Shown here: piece by piece, positions 25,011-64,000 of the stretch
Layout: every line of letters begins with the position of its first letter
Numbering within the stretch: the stretch's first letter is position 1
Assembly (NCBI GenBank): GCA_943333125.1
Contig: CALQSB010000008.1
Span: 20,676 to 84,675, forward strand
Source of the DNA: Chitinophaga pinensis
Lineage (GTDB): Bacteria; Bacteroidota; Bacteroidia; Chitinophagales; Chitinophagaceae
Direction: 5' to 3'
DNA: 64,000 nucleotides
Notes under the pieces: generated by a model
Seen by the model: the letters and a program-made list of their open reading frames with translations, nothing else
The model's database searches: none
Told to the model about the DNA's origin: nothing
Made by a program: the position numbers and the translations under genes

Positions 25011-28000
25011 TTATGGCGCCAGTGAAATCCGTATTTGAACCCCAGCTCTTGTATTGGTGGTAGGTGCGCTCGATGAAATGTAAGGCTTAACTCTTCTTTG
25101 GTCGTAATAAAGTTTAATATTAATTCTGCTGTTAAGGAAATAATCTATCGTAGGGCTTATAGAAGTTTCTTTACTTCCTCCTGTTGCAAAATTATTATCC
25201 TGATCTAAACGACTATTAGCAGTAACATTATCTCTAACTCTGAAATCAATTCTAAAATTAATTTCATTATCTAACTTACCCGATTTGTTTTTACTTAAGA
25301 AAGCAGGCAATTTCAATCCGCCGAATAACTTAAGTCCTTTCTTACGATACCCAGCACCAATAGTATATTCAGTGCTTCTTACTTCACTCAATTGATAATC
25401 ATTCAGGCTTAAGCTCAATTGTCTAGATTTAGAATATTCAAACTTAGCCTGCACTTGATTCACAAACATCATATCCACACCTACGAGAGGAGAAAACTGC
25501 TCCTGTATGCTAACGTTAGGCACAAGGAAATAAGGAATAAAGTTCTTTGAACTGGTATCATAAAAAGAAGGGTACCCATATCTCGAAACATCCTGATAGA
25601 ATAAAGCAGAAGTAAACCCGTTCATACTAAGACTTCCGGTGTAGCCATGAGAAATAGTAAGGTTTGTAAAGATTTTATCAAGTGGCTTAACTTTACTTAA
25701 TCCGTTGTAATCAATTTTCCAGTTAGGCTCCGGCAATATTGCCTTGAATGGATTGGATCTCAGATTACCATTATTCTGATTAATCAATCCAATACTATTC
25801 GGATCCTGGTCAGTATATGCAGCAATGAATGAAGGGATCAACACATCTACGGCATATTTTCCGTACCCATAATAAAATCCATCCGCCCCAACCTGATTAT
25901 TACTGTATGGATTTAACTTGCCCATTCGTTCAGACAAAATAACCCTGTTGCTTTCAAAAGTTTTGAATGTAGTAGAAACTCTGTTGGGATCAAATTTTCC
26001 AAATAAAGTTTTAAAGGCAATGTATGAAACATCAAAGCTTCCACCTGCATAAGGGTTCAGGTGTTTGAATTCAGGATTTTGTCCATTCAATGAAGTATCA
26101 ATATATCTATAAGTTTCGCTGTAACTTTTGCTGAAAGATTTACTGATATTTATAGTGATGTTCAAATCACGAACAGGTTCGAGCTGTGCTGACAGGGTAA
26201 TTTTCTGATCCAGATTTTGTTGAATCATCGAATTGAAATTACTGTCTCTGGAAATCAACCCTGATTGTCCTTTTTTGTTAAGCCAACTTGTATCCGGCTG
26301 CCAGCCCATAATAAAATCAAAGCCTGGTGACTGACTTTTAAAATTCTGTCCTACAAATTGAGTGCTGTCCATATACCCAGGAAGTCGTGTACTTGCATTT
26401 TCTGAAGCCGTAAAATTCACCTGCTTTAAACTGGTAAGTAGTTTTCCAAATACTTTCATTCCATTACTTACGTAAGGCATCGCAGATTTATCTACAATTT
26501 TCCTGGTTCTTAACACCTTTTTTCCTGATTTTGTCATTACCGAATCTTTCACTTTGGTAATTCTATTTCTCCACTTTTGCTGATCCTCTTTATTGGAAGG
26601 CTGATCTAATTGTTTTATCCATTTCGATTTCTGATAAATCTTGGTTAGATCCATTTGCACCGTTGCTTCTTTTTGCTGTCCGTTTTCTAAGAAGTTACCC
26701 AGATTAACCGCTAATCTTGATGCGCCAATCCATCTGTAAGCTGCTTGATATCTTATATTAACTGTTGTCCAGTCCAACAAAGGAAACTTAGCTGTCGGCA
26801 ACGTGTAGGAGATATTGGCTGTTTGATTAAATATCGTATTTCTTCCTCCTTTTAATAAGTTCCTGAGTATAGTATCTTTTTTTGCTTTGGTATCAATTCT
26901 TCCTGCGGGCTCATCAATTCTTGAATTATTAGTAGCGGTATAGTCAAAATTAATTGACTTGGTAAAATTCCACCTCATAATATAATCCCGCTGCATTGTG
27001 AAATATTTGTCATAGGTCTCCGGTATAATGTATTTGGTTTCACCAACGCTTCTTGGCCTAATAGCGCCAAACTGCCGGCTAATATCAGCCCTGAAACTTA
27101 ATTGTGATGGCAAATAATTGAAGTTGATATCTTTCACTAAACTGAGCCACTTAGTTTTTGATTTTCCTAAAATTTTCTTGAAGGGTTCGAAATATTTTGG
27201 TTGTGGGGAATAATTATATCCGATTGCACCGCGGTGCCTGGTTACCAAATTATTTTCGATGAGCGGATTGTGACTTTCTGTTTTTATGAATGAATAACTG
27301 ACATCCACATTTTCAATGTCATAAATTTTGGGAGACTTCCCATTGGTTTTATTTTTTCTGACATTGGTGAAGTTCAAAGTTTTTACAGAATTGAAATCGA
27401 TGGCGTTGTTTTTGATAGAATCTCTTTGAGATCTTGGGGATGTAATCAGTTTGTCTTTTAATTTGATGTCAAGATCATAAGGGTCATACTGCGGAGTACT
27501 TGTTGATTGCGTATAGCTTGCATAAACAGGAATTGACATGCCCGATTTTTTAGGTAACAACTTGCCCAACTCAAGATTAGTAGACAAATCGAATTGTAAA
27601 AAATCATCTCTGAATCGTTCTCCTACTCGTTGTTCAAGTGTACCAAAGCCTCTGCTATGTGCATTAGCAGAAACTGACACTGTTCCCAGGTCTGCCAAAT
27701 TAAGATCTACTCTTCCTAAAACTGCAAATCCTCCTTGCTCATTGATAGATGACAATCTTAATTCATTAACCCATATTTGTCCGCAGGCTGCAGGTGAATT
27801 TGTATTTTCAACACCGAGAAGTATGCCCCTGATCTCGCCTAAATTTGGATTTCCAATTACCCCATAGGTTTGACCGTTAGATTGCAATTGTTGAAACAAT
27901 CTCCCCAATGAAACACTGGAAAGATTTCTGGCTTGTTTTAGTTTAGTAAGTACCTCCAACTCCACATCAAGTGAATTAGAAGGATACCATAAAGAATCAT

Positions 28001-31000
28001 TGTATTGGTCCGAATCAGGATCCACTCCTGAAGTTAACGGGGTAAGCATCAGCGGTATTCGAATTTCATAGTAATTACTTACGAAATCTGTACCCAGTCT
28101 GATAACAGCAGTAAGATCTTTATCTTCTATTGTATTTGCCGGATTCTGAGATTGCTCCGCATGAATATACATAGATAGTTTTCCAAACTGTCTCAGATCT
28201 CTGTTCGCAAATGTTTGAAAAACACCTTTTGCATCTGATTTTCTCATATTGCAAAAAGTCATACTCAGCGCCTGTTCATTTTGAAGTAAGTTAACCCCGT
28301 TGTTACTCAGTGTTTGTACACGTTGAATATCCTTTGGTGTACGATAAGGTAACGGAGTTCTTTTGTCATTTTCTTCAATGTTTACCGCTTCCACATTGAA
28401 AGGCGTTGTACTTGTTGGAGAATACAAACCGGTAGAATCTATTTTATACTGAAACTTACGCCAGATATTTCTGGTCAGTTGAAGTAATCCAAATCTCATC
28501 ACAACACTGTCTTCAAAACCGGTAAGAAACATCCTCATAAATCTTATCGATTTGAAATCAGGAATATTGCCGATTTTTCTGTCATAGCTTGCTATGGGGA
28601 TTCTGAACTGATACCATGTTTCATTTCTCACTGATCCGTTAACCAGATTTATGGGAACTTCTTTTTTATCAACTATATAATTATTTCCAATCAGCATTTC
28701 TGCCGCATCTTTAGGTTTGATATCAACGATGTATTGAAAATATTCTTCAGTTTCGTTTAGGGTATTATCTTTATTAAGATCTTCTGCATCAGGATACAAT
28801 GTTGCTGCTGATGAAAATTCGCTGCCATTTGAAATAGGCGAATTTCCTTCGGGCCCATTATAACTCTTGTATCTAATTAAAATTCCGTCGGTTCCCGAAA
28901 ATCCTGCATCTCTGTAATTTCTATAATCATCACTGGATGGATCTTTCAATGCTTCCTGATAAACTGCTGAGCCGGTGCCAAAATTAGCTGCCAAATCAGC
29001 CAAATATACATCATGGAAATTCACTTCAGCGGTATCCGTCATTCCATCAAACCCAATGTCCTGGTATAAACGATCGTTAGGTATGTTACTAAATGCATTC
29101 GTTACCTGAATAGGGTTTCGTGGCACTCTTCCCCAAACTGTGTTATCAACAGGAGAAGGGGCATTAGGAGTATTCAATCCATTTTCATAAAATCTTCTGC
29201 CATCTTTCAACACATCTTCTGATATATTTCCCAGATTAAAATAAAGTTTGCCTCCGGTAGAGGAACTGTATTGGGGAAGTATAAAAGGATCCTGCATCCA
29301 AAACTCTATGAATTCAATATTACTGGTTTCGAAATCAGACTGATCGATACTTCGCATTAATCCTCCATATTTGGTTTTGGGATCAACAAAATTACCGTCC
29401 GATCTGATTTTAGCGGGATCAGATTCATAATTATACGGACCTACATTTTTAGGGTAATAAGCCATATCAAATGTCACCAGCTGACTTTCGCCAAATCCAG
29501 TTGTTTTCTGAGGAAAGATTTCTTTTTGATAAACTTGTCTTACTCTTGGATCACTTAGTTCATTACGATCACTGATTGGATTATTAGGCGCATCAATTTG
29601 CTGAAGCGTTTGTTCTATCTGATACCAGGCGATTTTAGCCCGGCTTTTTCCATAATCCAAGCTATTATTTAATAACGCCTCAGGAAATAATTCTATTCCA
29701 AGGCGATCTGTTGCGTGAGCAGGCGCTGAAGACATAACCCAGCTGATTAATGGAAATCTAAGATCTATTCCTGATTTACATCCTTCAAAATCGTCAATAT
29801 AAATAACTCCATTACTACCCTTCCCTATCTGTGGCGCGTGGCCGGGTTGTAGAAAGGCACCCTCACCGTAAGCATTAAGTGTTGATGGAACCTTTGTGTT
29901 ATAGAAAGGAAGTTTATCCAGAATCTTAGTAAGACGAGGGACATCTTTTTTGAAATTCACATCAGCACCATACATAGTATTTCTTATCGGCTCTTCTCCA
30001 TAATTAACCTTAGTGAAAAAAGGACGTTCTCCCAATCTTACTATTGTAGCTCCAAAAGACAATTGTTCTTTTGCATTATTCTTGGCCAAGTAGTCAAAAC
30101 GCAGGCCCATATAATTTCTTTGTTGTAAACCAAACGTTGCATTATTTTCGAAATTAACCTGTACTGGAAGCCCTGCATTCAAGATGGCTTGATTGGTCAT
30201 TTTGATGGTACCTAAATCATAATTAATGTCATAGTCTACCCCTTCTATTAAGGTTCTTCCTCCTGCCGATACCGTAACTGATCCTTTTGGAATGTTATAG
30301 CCAATACTGATTTCTGATGAGCCTGAAGTTTTTGCTGTTCCTTTCAAAACAAACCGATTCAAATTGGGGTACTGCTGTGCCACAGCTTTTATTGAATCAT
30401 ATAAATAATAGTACAAGGTATCGCTTACCTGAGCTGGAATCACATCGTAAATCTGAGGAGCCAAATCTCTGCCAAAGGGCTCAAGCACTGGAAAAATGAC
30501 TCGGCTATATTGTGATACCACTGTAAATCCTTCCACATAGTCAAACACCCCATCCGGCTGAGGATCAAGCTGACTATTCAAACGATCAAGATTTATTAAT
30601 GAAATTATTGGAGTGCCTAAATTTTTATCACCAAAAGGAGCATATCTTTTAGCCCCTAACCCTGGCTGTTGGTAAAGGACATCTAACTTAAAATCAGTTG
30701 AAGAAAGATTTCCGTAACCAATGGTGTACACATTTTTCATCATCAGCTGCCAAATAGGTAATGCTGGTCTTTGTGAAGTTGCTTTTAATAACTTAAGAAA
30801 AAGTACTTTCTGAGATGCAGATGTACTGTCTGGAGGAACGTCCTGAGAAAACTCCCCTACCTGATAAATTCTTCCATTAAATGAATATTGGAATGCCACA
30901 CCAAGCACTTCATCGGTTTGCAAAGGCTGACTAAGCGACAACATTCCTAATTGTCTGCTATAAGTATATTGTGTTGAATCCAGTTTTCTTGCAAATGTTT

Positions 31001-32297
31001 TTTCAAAATCCTGAACCGGACTCAATCCAAGGTTCTGAAGATTATTAAACACCAATGCCGAATTTCTGGCGTCTGGCTGATTTAAAATATTGGAAAGAAG
31101 ATCGTTCGATGAATTGAATGGAACGGCAAGGCCAGTAAGCACATTTATTATTGGTGGCTGTATATAAGGATTTTTTTCGCCAAGATCCGCCAATCCAACG
31201 ATGTCTCTTGTTTCGGTAGTGGTCCCGTTTTTATTGGTTACCCAAACCTCCATTCTAAGAATTTGAACAGGAGCAGTAATGGCAGGAAGGTTTGACATTA
31301 CTTTATTATAATTGTCTTTAAAATATTGCGCCACTAAAAAGTGTCTGTTTTCTTCATATTCATCTGCCTTGATTTCGAAAGGGGTTGCCGCAGTACCACC
31401 TTGCAGATTTACACTTTGACGCTGCGATTTTTGATTAGCCAGCACACCTGTGATAAACAATTTTCCAAATTGCAACTGAGTTTTTAATCCAAATAATTGC
31501 TGGGCCCCCGGAATCAATGTTCCTTTTGCAGGGAAAGTAACATTACCTGCTTCAAATCTTTTAAGAATCTCATCATCTTTTCCTGAGTAATCTAATTTGA
31601 GTTGATTGTCGAGATCGAAATTTGCGAGGGTATTATAATTTATTGGGAATTTAAGTTTGTCGCCGATACTGGCATTTACATTCAACTGTGTGTTCATTTG
31701 AAAATCCAGTCCGCCATTTTTCCTTGCTCTTTCGGGCAAAGTCGGGTTGTCGATTTTCTGACCCTGATATCCTGCTGTAACATCCACGTTTCCCTGAGGC
31801 GTAATATCTATTTTGCCATTACCAAAAAGCCGGTTGAATAAATCATCGGTTAACGATAATTTAGGCTTCAGGAATTTTCCTCGATTTAAAATGTTGGTAG
31901 TATTGGATCTTTTTTGAAAATAAGAAATTTCTGCCTGACGATTTTTAATAGCCCAATATTCGTTAAAAGAATAACTCATCGGCGTTCTAAAGTAACGATT
32001 TCCGATTTTCTCATAAACAATATATCTTTTAGAATCGTAATCATAAACGATTGAATCTTTAAGATTAGATGGCTGGAAAGCATTGAAAGAATTATAATTG
32101 CTTACCGATAAATTATCCCCCCTTCTGTCGGAAATTGGATAAGGCAAGCTGAGCACAGAGGGATTAACAGAAGTATCCTGTATAAAGTCGGGATTGCCAG
32201 TACCTCCGAATGAATTATTTACATCGAAGACTAAAAACAAAGCCAGACATACCGCTAATCTCATTAGTGTATGGATAATTTTTTGTTTAAAAAACAT
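25011..32297 (-). CDS. sprA: T9SS outer-membrane translocon / gliding protein SprA
   Basis: 2428-aa secreted protein with SprA hallmark segments (DITPQGNVDVTAGYQGQKIDNPTLPERARKNGGLDFQMNTQLNVNASIGDKL; IYIDDFEGCKSGIDLRFP); adjacent to ruvA. Confidence 0.94.
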   Translation of the reverse strand: MFFKQKIIHTLMRLAVCLALFLVFDVNNSFGGTGNPDFIQDTSVNPSVLSLPYPISDRRGDNLSVSNYNSFNAFQPSNLKDSIVYDYDSKRYIVYEKIGNRYFRTPMSYSFNEYWAIKNRQAEISYFQKRSNTTNILNRGKFLKPKLSLTDDLFNRLFGNGKIDITPQGNVDVTAGYQGQKIDNPTLPERARKNGGLDFQMNTQLNVNASIGDKLKFPINYNTLANFDLDNQLKLDYSGKDDEILKRFEAGNVTFPAKGTLIPGAQQLFGLKTQLQFGKLFITGVLANQKSQRQSVNLQGGTAATPFEIKADEYEENRHFLVAQYFKDNYNKVMSNLPAITAPVQILRMEVWVTNKNGTTTETRDIVGLADLGEKNPYIQPPIINVLTGLAVPFNSSNDLLSNILNQPDARNSALVFNNLQNLGLSPVQDFEKTFARKLDSTQYTYSRQLGMLSLSQPLQTDEVLGVAFQYSFNGRIYQVGEFSQDVPPDSTSASQKVLFLKLLKATSQRPALPIWQLMMKNVYTIGYGNLSSTDFKLDVLYQQPGLGAKRYAPFGDKNLGTPIISLINLDRLNSQLDPQPDGVFDYVEGFTVVSQYSRVIFPVLEPFGRDLAPQIYDVIPAQVSDTLYYYLYDSIKAVAQQYPNLNRFVLKGTAKTSGSSEISIGYNIPKGSVTVSAGGRTLIEGVDYDINYDLGTIKMTNQAILNAGLPVQVNFENNATFGLQQRNYMGLRFDYLAKNNAKEQLSFGATIVRLGERPFFTKVNYGEEPIRNTMYGADVNFKKDVPRLTKILDKLPFYNTKVPSTLNAYGEGAFLQPGHAPQIGKGSNGVIYIDDFEGCKSGIDLRFPLISWVMSSAPAHATDRLGIELFPEALLNNSLDYGKSRAKIAWYQIEQTLQQIDAPNNPISDRNELSDPRVRQVYQKEIFPQKTTGFGESQLVTFDMAYYPKNVGPYNYESDPAKIRSDGNFVDPKTKYGGLMRSIDQSDFETSNIEFIEFWMQDPFILPQYSSSTGGKLYFNLGNISEDVLKDGRRFYENGLNTPNAPSPVDNTVWGRVPRNPIQVTNAFSNIPNDRLYQDIGFDGMTDTAEVNFHDVYLADLAANFGTGSAVYQEALKDPSSDDYRNYRDAGFSGTDGILIRYKSYNGPEGNSPISNGSEFSSAATLYPDAEDLNKDNTLNETEEYFQYIVDIKPKDAAEMLIGNNYIVDKKEVPINLVNGSVRNETWYQFRIPIASYDRKIGNIPDFKSIRFMRMFLTGFEDSVVMRFGLLQLTRNIWRKFQYKIDSTGLYSPTSTTPFNVEAVNIEENDKRTPLPYRTPKDIQRVQTLSNNGVNLLQNEQALSMTFCNMRKSDAKGVFQTFANRDLRQFGKLSMYIHAEQSQNPANTIEDKDLTAVIRLGTDFVSNYYEIRIPLMLTPLTSGVDPDSDQYNDSLWYPSNSLDVELEVLTKLKQARNLSSVSLGRLFQQLQSNGQTYGVIGNPNLGEIRGILLGVENTNSPAACGQIWVNELRLSSINEQGGFAVLGRVDLNLADLGTVSVSANAHSRGFGTLEQRVGERFRDDFLQFDLSTNLELGKLLPKKSGMSIPVYASYTQSTSTPQYDPYDLDIKLKDKLITSPRSQRDSIKNNAIDFNSVKTLNFTNVRKNKTNGKSPKIYDIENVDVSYSFIKTESHNPLIENNLVTRHRGAIGYNYSPQPKYFEPFKKILGKSKTKWLSLVKDINFNYLPSQLSFRADISRQFGAIRPRSVGETKYIIPETYDKYFTMQRDYIMRWNFTKSINFDYTATNNSRIDEPAGRIDTKAKKDTILRNLLKGGRNTIFNQTANISYTLPTAKFPLLDWTTVNIRYQAAYRWIGASRLAVNLGNFLENGQQKEATVQMDLTKIYQKSKWIKQLDQPSNKEDQQKWRNRITKVKDSVMTKSGKKVLRTRKIVDKSAMPYVSNGMKVFGKLLTSLKQVNFTASENASTRLPGYMDSTQFVGQNFKSQSPGFDFIMGWQPDTSWLNKKGQSGLISRDSNFNSMIQQNLDQKITLSAQLEPVRDLNITINISKSFSKSYSETYRYIDTSLNGQNPEFKHLNPYAGGSFDVSYIAFKTLFGKFDPNRVSTTFKTFESNRVILSERMGKLNPYSNNQVGADGFYYGYGKYAVDVLIPSFIAAYTDQDPNSIGLINQNNGNLRSNPFKAILPEPNWKIDYNGLSKVKPLDKIFTNLTISHGYTGSLSMNGFTSALFYQDVSRYGYPSFYDTSSKNFIPYFLVPNVSIQEQFSPLVGVDMMFVNQVQAKFEYSKSRQLSLSLNDYQLSEVRSTEYTIGAGYRKKGLKLFGGLKLPAFLSKNKSGKLDNEINFRIDFRVRDNVTANSRLDQDNNFATGGSKETSISPTIDYFLNSRINIKLYYDQRRVKPYISSSAPTTNTRAGVQIRISLAP

Positions 32298-45055: not shown

Positions 45056-45183
45056 GTTTGGCGTTTGTGGTTTGGCGTTTTGTTCAAAAGGTTTCAGACC
45101 TGCCTGCCGGCAGGGGTTCAAAATGTTAGTTTTTATTCAGAAACAACCTGTCGAACCTATTGAACTTATTAAACGTTTGAAAC
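45056..45183. repeat. Mosaic intergenic repeat cluster R1 (GTTTGGCGTTT x2, 9-nt GTT.. units, CCTGCCGGCAGG palindrome, 9-nt AAC.. units)
   Basis: Units read directly: gttcaaaag, gtttcagac, gttcaaaat | aacctgtcg, aacctattg, aacttatta, aacgtttga. Confidence 0.7.
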
Positions 45184-46402: not shown

Positions 46403-46410
46403 TATATTTG
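46403..46410 (+). promoter_or_regulatory. Putative -7 box (TATATTTG) for the acyl-CoA dehydrogenase
   Basis: Perfect TAnnTTTG 21 nt before the ATG at 46432; argues against the upstream start at 46408. Confidence 0.5.
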
Positions 46411-46431
46411 CACATATTTAAAATCAAACAA

Positions 46432-47616
46432 ATGGCTGCTAAAACAGATAATTTTCAATCCCCCGATTATTTTGGCGTAGATGAATTGCTTACCGAAGAA
46501 CATAAACTTATTCGTGAAGCGGTACGCAATTATGTAAAAAAAGAAATCTCTCCTATCATCGAAGATTTTGCCCAACGTGCCGAATTCCCTCAGCATATTG
46601 TAAAGCAATTGGGTGATTTGGGTTGTTTTGGACCAACAGTTCCTGAGCAATATGGCGGTGGCGGTTTAGATTACATTTCTTATGGATTGATGATGCAGGA
46701 ACTCGAGCGCGGTGATAGTGGCGTTCGTTCTACGGCGTCTGTGCAAGGTAGTTTGGTTATGTTTCCTATTTATCAATATGGCAATGAAGCACAAAGAAAT
46801 AAATATTTACCAAAATTGGCAAGTGGCGAATGGCTTGGATGCTTTGGATTAACTGAACCTAATCATGGTTCTGATCCTGGTGGAATGTTAACCAACTTCA
46901 AGGATGCAGGTGATCATGTGATTTTGAATGGCGCTAAAATGTGGATCAGCAATGCGCCTTTTTCACAAGTAGCCGTAGTTTGGGCTAAAAATGATGCAGG
47001 CGAAATTCAAGGCATCATTGTTGAAAGAGGAATGGAAGGCTTCACCACACCTACTACACATGGCAAATGGAGTTTACGGGCAAGTGCTACCGGTGAACTG
47101 GTTTTTGATAATGTAAAAGTTCCAAAAGAAAATATTTTACCCAATGTAAAAGGATTAAAAGGTCCTCTAGGATGTTTAACAAAAGCACGTTATGGAATTG
47201 CCTGGGGTGCTATTGGTGCTGCAATGGACTGCTATGACATTGCCTTAAACTATAGCAAAGAAAGAGTGCAGTTTGGAAGACCCATCGGCGGCTTTCAATT
47301 ACAACAAAAAAAACTTGCAGAAATGATTACCGAAATTACCAAAGCACAATTAATGAACTGGAGATTAGGCGTTTTGATGAATGAAGGAAAAGTTACTCCT
47401 GCTCAGGTAAGCATGGCTAAAAGAAATGCTTGCGAAGTGGCTACTAATATTTGCAGAGATGCGAGACAGATGCTTGGCGGAATGGGCATTACAGGCGAAT
47501 ATCCTGTTATGCGTCACATGATGAACCTGGAAAGTGTAATTACTTATGAAGGAACGCATGATATTCATTTGCTAATTACAGGTATGGATGTGACTGGATT
47601 CAATGCTTTTAAGTAA
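46432..47616 (+). CDS. Acyl-CoA dehydrogenase, glutaryl-CoA dehydrogenase-like
   Basis: VPEQYGGGGLDYISYGLMMQELERGDSGVRSTASVQGSLVMFPI, GCFGLTEPNHGSDPGGM, YEGTHDIHLLITG. Confidence 0.93.
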   Translation: MAAKTDNFQSPDYFGVDELLTEEHKLIREAVRNYVKKEISPIIEDFAQRAEFPQHIVKQLGDLGCFGPTVPEQYGGGGLDYISYGLMMQELERGDSGVRSTASVQGSLVMFPIYQYGNEAQRNKYLPKLASGEWLGCFGLTEPNHGSDPGGMLTNFKDAGDHVILNGAKMWISNAPFSQVAVVWAKNDAGEIQGIIVERGMEGFTTPTTHGKWSLRASATGELVFDNVKVPKENILPNVKGLKGPLGCLTKARYGIAWGAIGAAMDCYDIALNYSKERVQFGRPIGGFQLQQKKLAEMITEITKAQLMNWRLGVLMNEGKVTPAQVSMAKRNACEVATNICRDARQMLGGMGITGEYPVMRHMMNLESVITYEGTHDIHLLITGMDVTGFNAFK

Positions 47617-47617
47617 T

Positions 47618-47803
47618 GTTCAAAATGTTTCAAAGGTTCAAATAGTTTAAGAGGTTTCGCCACGAAGGCACTAAGGCACTAAGAAACACGAAGTATTATT
47701 GCGGAGGGCTCAACGTTTTTTGACACCGAATGCTTTTAACATCTGGAACCTTTTGAACTTGTTAAACCTATTGAGCCTTTTGAATTTATTAAACCTTTTA
47801 AAC
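47618..47803. repeat. Mosaic intergenic repeat cluster R2 (four 9-nt GTT units, core gccacgaaggcactaaggcactaag, then seven 9-nt AAC-type units)
   Basis: Left: gttcaaaat gtttcaaag gttcaaata gtttaagag. Right (47738-47800): aacatctgg aaccttttg aacttgtta aacctattg agccttttg aatttatta aacctttta. Confidence 0.8.
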
Positions 47804-49643: not shown

Positions 49644-49729
49644 AAAAAACGCAACGTCCCTTTCAGGAGACATTGCTGAGAAGTTGAAAAAACGCAACGT
49701 CCCTTTCAGGAGACATTGCTGAGAAGTTG
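49644..49729 (-). repeat. Exact tandem duplication of a 43-bp unit, each a hairpin plus T-run on the minus strand (double terminator-like)
   Basis: aaaaaacgcaacgtccctttcaggagacattgctgagaagttg present at 49644-49686 and 49687-49729. Confidence 0.9.
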
Positions 49730-49768
49730 AACATCGAGTATCCAGCATCTAGTATCTACTATCCAACT

Positions 49769-58552: not shown

Positions 58553-58669
58553 GTTTGGCAGCCGCCTAATTCACACAATGAGAGATTTGTTTGATGTTTG
58601 GGGTTTGGCGTTTTTTCTTCGTTTAATTCGCTGCGCCGGTTTGTGACGTATCCAGCATCAAGTATCCAG
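58553..58669. repeat. Mosaic intergenic repeat cluster R3 (GTTTGGC words, GTTTAATTCGCTGCGC, GTATCCAGCATCAAGTATCCAG)
   Basis: Words shared with R1, R4 and with 49738-49766 and 63274-63312. Confidence 0.6.
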
Positions 58670-59996: not shown

Positions 59997-60139
59997 GTTT
60001 ATAGGTTTAAATCACTTCTTTGGTTTAATGGTTTAAATCGCTGCGCTGCCTGCCTGCCGGTAGGCAGGGTTTAATTGTTGTTTCTATATGAATGAACCTT
60101 TTGAACAAATTGAACATTTTGAACCGCTGAAACATTTTA
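59997..60139. repeat. Mosaic intergenic repeat cluster R4 (GTTTAAATC words, 20-nt near-palindrome cctgcctgccggtaggcagg, five 9-nt AAC units overlapping the next gene's stop)
   Basis: Right arm 60095-60139: aaccttttg aacaaattg aacattttg aaccgctga aacatttta. Confidence 0.75.
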
Positions 60140-60565
60140 CGCAATTTCCACCAATTCAATATCAAATACCAGTTCTTGTCCGGCGAGGAAATGATTGGCA
60201 TCAAGAATTATTATATCTTCTTTTACATCAACAACCACTACCGGTATAGGTTGACCCATCTGATCGGTAAGCGTCAACGTCATTCCTGGTTCTAGTTTCA
60301 TATCTGCAGGAACATTTTCTTTTGGAAAAGGAATAATCGCTTCTTCGCTTCTTGGACCATAAGCATCTTCGGGAGCGATGTTGATTGTTTTCTTTTCTCC
60401 TATTGACATACCGGGCATGGCGGCATCAAAACCTTTAATCATTTGTCCGGCACCAACTGTAAATTCGAGTGGCTCTCTTCCTGCTGAAGAATCAAATTGT
60501 TCGCCTGATGTTAATTTACCTGTGTAATGAACTTTCACTACATCGCCTGCTTTAACTTGTTGCAT
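60137..60565 (-). CDS. FKBP-type peptidyl-prolyl cis-trans isomerase (SlyD-like)
   Basis: VKVHYTGKLTSGEQFDSSAGREPLEFTVGAGQMIKGFDAAMPGMSIGEKKTINIAPEDAYG; DANHFLAGQELVFDIELVEI. Confidence 0.95.
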   Translation of the reverse strand: MQQVKAGDVVKVHYTGKLTSGEQFDSSAGREPLEFTVGAGQMIKGFDAAMPGMSIGEKKTINIAPEDAYGPRSEEAIIPFPKENVPADMKLEPGMTLTLTDQMGQPIPVVVVDVKEDIIILDANHFLAGQELVFDIELVEIA

Positions 60566-63254: not shown

Positions 63255-63318
63255 TTAAAAGAGTGACTTCTTTGATACTGGATACTGGATGCTGGTTACT
63301 TCATACTGGATAAAACGA

Positions 63319-63352
63319 AAAAAGCCTCTCAGTTTCCTGAAAGGCTTTTAAT
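63319..63352 (-). terminator. Rho-independent terminator of the rRNA operon
   Basis: Minus strand AAAAGCCTTTCAG-GAAA-CTGAGAGGCTTTTTT immediately downstream of 5S. Confidence 0.85.
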
Positions 63353-63357
63353 AAATA

Positions 63358-63468
63358 TGGCAGCTACCTACTCTCCCGCATTTTTGTGCAGTACCATCGG
63401 CCATGAGGGGCTTAACTTCTCTGTTCGGTATGGGAAGAGGTGAACACCCTCGGCAAAACCACCATAAG
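63358..63468 (-). rRNA. rrf: 5S ribosomal RNA
   Basis: Reverse complement contains TCTTATGGTGGTTTTGCCGAGGGTGTTCACCTCTTCCCATACCGAACAGAGAAGTTAAGCCCCTCATGGCCGATGGTACTGC...GGGAGAGTAGGTAGCTGCCA; ends approximate. Confidence 0.93.
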
Positions 63469-63470
63469 AC

Positions 63471-63559
63471 GTTTGGAGTGTTTAAAAGGTTGAACAGATT
63501 CAAAATGTTTAAAAGGTTAAAACCTATTGAACTTAATGAACTTATGGAACCTATTGAAC
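63471..63559. repeat. 9-nt repeat cluster R5 in the 5S-23S rRNA spacer: five GTT-type units then four AAC-type units
   Basis: gtttggagt gtttaaaag gttgaacag attcaaaat gtttaaaag gtt-aa aacctattg aacttaatg aacttatgg aacctattg aac. Confidence 0.85.
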
Positions 63560-63642
63560 ATACCATAATAAGATTAACATATTGGAATAAGTTATAAAAC
63601 GGTAAAAGTATTAACAACCGAAGTTGAAAATAAAAAAAAATA

Positions 63643-64000
<358 letters not shown>

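Follow-up and report, generated by a model that had tools for sequence, protein, structure and literature searches.

The 9-nt repeat hairpin in the 5S-23S rRNA spacer of this Chitinophaga pinensis genome is probably an ORF-less copy of an element resembling the intervening sequences (IVSs) of 23S rRNA, likely acting as a local processing stem, which RNase III would cut and which would be lost with the spacer. In relatives, arms of the same 9-nt units enclose a gene of the PF05635 family, and GTTYAA units are the specific partner of this clade's IVP subfamily; together, these two observations make such an element the most likely origin of the spacer hairpin.

The spacer hairpin and its counterparts in relatives

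The window, i.e. the whole stretch of 64,000 nucleotides that was analyzed, ends within an rrn operon on the minus strand. The operon and its hairpin comprise the following features:

63320..63349, minus strand: stem resembling an intrinsic terminator, at the 3' end of the rrn operon (direct reading and folding)
63355..63466, minus strand: 5S rRNA gene (Rfam RF00001, 71 bits)
63471..63559, strand-symmetric (.): whole hairpin of 9-nt tandem repeats, GTT on the left meeting AAC on the right (reading, Tandem Repeats Finder, folding)
63471..63520, plus strand: GTT arm, GTTTGGAGT GTTTAAAAG GTTGAACAG ATTCAAAAT GTTTAAAAG GTTAA, which is the 3' arm in the rRNA transcript (direct reading, spacing scan)
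63521..63559, minus strand: AAC arm, AACCTATTG AACTTAATG AACTTATGG AACCTATTG AAC, which is the 5' arm in the rRNA transcript (reading, Tandem Repeats Finder, spacing scan)
63636..64000, minus strand: 3' part of the 23S rRNA, truncated where both the window and contig C8 end (Rfam RF02541)

Given the Rfam coordinates of both rRNA genes, the array begins 4 nt from the 5' end of the 5S and stops 76 nt from the 3' end of the 23S. GTT triplets are read directly at 63471, 63480, 63489, 63507 and 63516, with an in-phase unit at 63498 that begins with ATT, and AAC triplets at 63521, 63530, 63539, 63548 and 63557. The GTT side comprises five units plus the ATT unit and the AAC side four full units plus a terminal AAC, which bears out the initial annotation, where five GTT units were said to meet four AAC units at gttaaaacc. 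The AAC half was detected as period 9 by Tandem Repeats Finder. Folding also upholds the proposed imperfect hairpin within the rRNA precursor: the transcribed (minus) strand folds better than its shuffles (z = -3.3, and z = -3.9 for the 5S-proximal part), with C.A and U.U mismatches in the stem. The hairpin is not the cleanest copy that it had been taken for, as other copies in the genome have four to seven perfect GTTYAANNR units per arm.

The stem is AT-rich and no U-run lies between it and the 5S on the transcribed strand, so that it lacks the marks of an intrinsic terminator. With the 23S IVSs it shares terminal inverted repeats that form a long, here imperfect, stem. It is located between the 23S 3' end and the 5S instead of within the 23S gene, and its loop contains no ORF, the S23p/IVP gene being an optional component of IVSs. 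Directly past the rrn terminator, a 7-nt GATACTG tandem repeat is present (63274-63312), apparently from a further family of short repeats, with similar units of ATCCAGTATC type near 58660 and 49740.

The rrn comparison was made between genomes, the assembly of this genome having one 5S. The 5S-23S junction is assembled in 11 genus members; each has a hairpin predicted immediately 5' of the 5S, and their spacers share one layout: a conserved left stretch (...AATATGT...TTATTA), then a single predicted hairpin, then the 5S. The hairpin on the 5S side is the 9-nt repeat in this genome (G000) and in G011, a 7-nt-like repeat in G014 and an unrelated short hairpin elsewhere. It is weak in G004, G017 and G006, where it is not clearly better than shuffles, and more stable than shuffles in most of the others. 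A search for the G014 spacer hairpin as a dispersed family returned its own copy only; the 5S-side hairpins are therefore not all members of repeat families. At the level of predicted folds, structure is kept at the rRNA site and sequence turns over across the genus. Since all 11 members have a predicted hairpin and its sequences differ, the position beside the 5S tolerates a hairpin and may even need one.

Recent insertion, one of the origins considered in the initial annotation, holds in so far as the repeat is lineage-specific (G000 and G011 only), but the repeat is older than the split between these two. The annotation had further proposed to regard the repeat as neutral low-complexity sequence should the spacers of relatives lack it and show no conserved structure. 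Its sequence is indeed common to the close relative G011 only, whereas the hairpin structure is conserved in all 11 members, so the second half of that proposal does not apply. A hairpin predicted in every member, and mostly more stable than shuffles, is also what would be expected from a conserved functional rRNA-processing hairpin that has no tie to a mobile element and whose sequence converged on the repeat by chance. We regard this as quite improbable, because the spacer sequence is the genome-wide unit that is found at dozens of non-rRNA places, which makes the hairpin a member of the family whatever role its position has.

A dispersed GTTYAANNR family and its turnover

The three-unit pattern (GTTNAANNN units) is matched 112 times across the 2.85-Mb genome, and its reversed control not once. 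The family was collected as 85 arrays in 57 elements at unlinked places, i.e. at least 57 copies; element statistics use the stretches around the listed pattern matches, a handful of matches being left out. The units have the consensus GTTYAANNR, and arrays of four units are the most frequent (46 of the 85). Outer and inner units differ somewhat in consensus, the signal of the outer-end unit being partly shaped by the one-mismatch extension rule, and conservation stops at the array ends. Four-unit arms, position-specific unit preferences and the lack of conservation outside the arrays point to a defined element rather than free slippage. Nearby array pairs are convergent (GTT then AAC) in 28 cases and divergent in none, and single arrays have a degenerate partner opposite in 23 of 29 cases. 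The window holds these copies besides the spacer hairpin:

45145..45183, minus strand: AAC array with a degenerate GTT partner on the left (spacing scan, folding)
47618..47803, strand-symmetric (.): GTT arm at 47618-47662 and AAC arm at 47735-47803, with other repeats in the loop (Tandem Repeats Finder, spacing scan, folding)
60092..60133, minus strand: AAC array with a degenerate GTT partner on the left (spacing scan, folding)

The copy at 47618..47803 begins 1 nt past the stop codon of an acyl-CoA dehydrogenase gene (46408-47616; Pfam), and the AAC array at 60092..60133 is located 3 nt from the stop codon of an FKBP-type gene (60137-60565, minus strand; Pfam). With genes called by a home-made coding model, 14 of 30 stop-facing edges lie within 10 nt of a stop codon against 3.1 expected, and start-facing edges show no excess within 10 nt of a start codon (4 of 26 against 4.6 expected). 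Some other features of the window were noted. The loop of the 47618 hairpin contains a nested dispersed short repeat of CACTAAGG/CACGAAGG type (47662-47694), common to G004, G005, G014 and others; an intergenic stretch at 49644-49731 is a perfect two-copy tandem duplication of 43 bp; and positions 25011-32297 form one ORF of 2428 aa.

The strong bias of array edges to stop codons would suit a 3' UTR or terminator device, with hairpins that stabilize or end mRNAs and the rRNA copy as a side effect. This explanation is very improbable in our view, as the stems are AT-rich, imperfect and without an adjacent U-run, separate real terminators exist (e.g. at 63320-63349 and inside the hairpin loops of G021 and G010), and sites are empty in close relatives. 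Arm matching within a locus shows no excess among ORF-less copies (own 1.42, cross 1.65), and the G-U strand asymmetry towards the transcribed strand that was looked for in the arms is absent (C32/T18 in the 5' arm, C36/T18 in the 3' arm); consequently, there is no sign of selection on RNA pairing per site.

In the genus survey, the three-unit pattern was counted 61 times in this genome, 27 times in G005, 8 times in G011, 76 times in G016 (1.9 Mb) and 103 times in G029, with 0-2 matches in the other genomes, and it is nearly absent from 395 other Bacteroidota (at most 1 match per genome). Abundance of the unit is limited to a few species of one Chitinophagaceae genus. Small, dispersed extragenic hairpins, together with the Y1_Tnp genes of this genome (5 matches), could indicate a REPIN-like element mobilized by a RAYT (Y1 transposase), and dispersed short extragenic palindromes are indeed what REPINs and RAYT-associated REPs are (PMC3116915, PMC3733652). 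Dispersal by a RAYT was rejected and is extremely improbable: G016, in which the family is abundant, has 0 Y1_Tnp matches at 94% completeness, and four Y1_Tnp loci are free of GTTYAA arrays for about 1.5 kb in both directions. Measured against REPINs and REPs, the present family also differs by its tandem 9-nt units, by the lack of a linked Y1 transposase and by a unit, GTTYAANNR, that carries neither the GTAG nor the CGTC tag (tags as given in PMC3733652).

The junction that holds the 60092-60133 copy in this genome is empty in G016 and G029 (spacers of 33-34 nt) and has a mixed arm pair in G011. In G021 and G010, arms of other units enclose a terminator at this junction, and the same terminator is present without arms in G004 and G009. 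The comparison of these orthologous junctions reveals both gain and loss of hairpins, and it indicates that arms can lie around older sequence, an arrangement for which simple cassette insertion offers no explanation. Such arms are compatible with neutral growth, in which slippage in unconstrained sequence and template switching give rise to inverted arms and IVP genes share the tolerant spots, as are the lack of locus-specific arm matching in ORF-less copies, the additional tandem blocks in G016 and a unit period that varies between 7, 8 and 9. We nevertheless consider neutral growth unlikely. Independent slippage would not be expected to produce typical four-unit arms with position-specific unit preferences, a fixed polarity of the pairs, one unit sequence that recurs at about 57 unlinked places in G000, or a specificity of GTTYAA for one IVP subfamily across Bacteroidota, as detailed in the following section.

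IVP genes between repeat arms

A search with PF05635 (23S_rRNA_IVP, the S23p four-helix bundle) identified three genes in this genome, two of which (L144 and L145) have 7-nt repeat arms on both sides. None of the 9-nt arrays of G000 has an IVP gene inside it, and the link is drawn from relatives. After the acyl-CoA dehydrogenase gene, where G000 has the 9-nt hairpin, G014, G006 and G008 have a small gene between inverted short repeats. At L149 (G016) and L153 (G011), arrays of the same 9-nt unit as in the spacer hairpin enclose a PF05635 gene immediately behind a stop codon; G000 lacks an IVP gene at the corresponding site. The proteins of L153 and L149 match TIGR02436 with 105.5 and 98 bits, respectively (cut-off 24), as well as PF05635 and PDB entries 2gsc and 2rld.

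PF05635 is present in 89 of the 93 genus genomes, and genome contigs were scanned for IVP loci with three IVPs. In 39 genus loci, the 5' flank was compared with the reverse complements of the 3' flanks; its own partner gave a better match than all 38 cross-locus partners in 17 loci, where about 1 such case is expected. The flanks are periodic in most of the 39 loci, mainly with period 7 or 14; of the ordinary window-gene flanks that served as control, 9 of 94 are periodic, six of these with period 9. Among the 74 named loci, drawn from the breadth of Bacteroidota and from a few further phyla, 69 have at least one periodic flank, the units being GTTYAA with one to three additional nt (periods 7, 8 and 9). 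Most of the 39 genus genes and 74 named loci lie between inverted tandem-repeat arms, with units of 7, 8, 9 and, rarely, 11 nt. We found no report of IVP genes between tandem-repeat arms in open-access papers.

GTTYAA occurs 4.55 times per locus in divergent members of the subfamily (<60% identity) versus 0.53 times in other IVPs and 0.4-0.5 times in shuffles (p about 1e-7, p-values being optimistic because loci share descent). When flank k-mers were compared with IVP identity below 60%, a stricter Mantel test gave no significant correlation (r 0.08, p 0.08). By the counts per locus, GTTYAA units go specifically with the IVP subfamily of this clade. The named relatives of the linked protein put the clade in lake Chitinophagaceae; L184, from Bacteroidetes MAG KTt_bin-2244, is identical to the query protein from G011. 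The 9-nt arms of the Chitinophagaceae clade also flank IVP loci on contigs labeled Streptomyces griseus (L185 and L220), a label that is probably wrong unless the MAG is contaminated.

Several individual IVP loci have further peculiarities. GTTTGGC/GTTTGGG heptamer arrays at 45056-45079 and 58589-58612 of the window have the same unit as the arms of L144. In L144 (G000 contig C13) and L148 (G029 contig C78), the IVP frame continues via a repeat-encoded linker into a seemingly RidA-like protein, the fused ORF having about 300 aa, and ORFs of similar length recur at IVP matches in several other genus members. The IVP gene of L145 (G000 contig C29) is broken by one stop codon, and the gene at the same site in G005 (L150) is open.

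Proposed course and relation to known elements

IVSs are known mainly from inside 23S rRNA, and we know of no function that has been assigned to S23p/IVP despite solved structures. The DGR accessory protein Avd, a four-helix bundle with a fold related to that of S23p, works together with the DGR reverse transcriptase; its likeness to S23p is one of fold and is taken as a lead only. Because IVP subfamily and repeat unit are paired, we infer that the IVP protein may recognize and bind the repeat and thereby help to spread or maintain the elements.

In the model that we favor, the element consists of two inverted short-tandem-repeat arms, here about four GTTYAANNR units and their complement, and the loop of full-length relatives holds the 23S_rRNA_IVP (S23p, PF05635) four-helix-bundle gene. 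Copies would settle in transcribed non-coding DNA, either just past stop codons or, as here, in the 5S-23S spacer. The arms would then pair in the transcript into an imperfect stem of about 38 nt, which sits where relatives have other hairpins by the 5S and most likely is the local processing stem or a substitute for it. RNase III would cut this stem, which would then be lost together with the spacer and so be harmless at the rRNA site.

The closest known counterpart is the 23S IVS of Coxiella burnetii, which carries an S23p/IVP gene with adjoining GACAGAT heptamers and is excised by RNase III in vitro (PMC4990558). The present hairpin would likely be removed by RNase III as well. In both elements, inverted ends pair into a stem, the loop (of full copies) holds an S23p-family gene and short tandem repeats lie beside that gene; the present copy likewise resides in an rRNA precursor. 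Unlike the Coxiella IVS, the elements described here occupy the 5S-23S spacer and mostly sites after the stop codons of protein genes instead of the interior of the 23S, their arms consist wholly of tandem repeats and dozens of ORF-less copies exist per genome. The TAACTGA heptamers, direct repeats of Beggiatoaceae, Cyanobacteria and some Bacteroidetes that mostly lie upstream of start codons (PMC4679880), are similar as short tandem intergenic arrays found in some Bacteroidetes. They differ from the present family, which forms inverted pairs of arrays after stop codons and has a 9-nt unit.

Within the rRNA precursor, a repeat hairpin can thus take a place that in relatives is held by other hairpins. 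The pairing of IVP with arms of a subfamily-specific motif suggests what IVP may recognize, makes its function testable by a binding assay and gives some of the short-repeat hairpins in the intergenic DNA of Bacteroidota a possible origin. A broader generalization, to which we give somewhat less than an even chance, is that PF05635 proteins recognize a large class of hairpin elements in Bacteroidota, each subfamily with its own tandem unit (GTTYAA plus 1-3 nt here), and that these elements and their ORF-less derivatives colonize 3' UTRs and rRNA spacers. If this is true, what is called the '23S rRNA intervening sequence' would be one special case within a far larger family of selfish hairpins.
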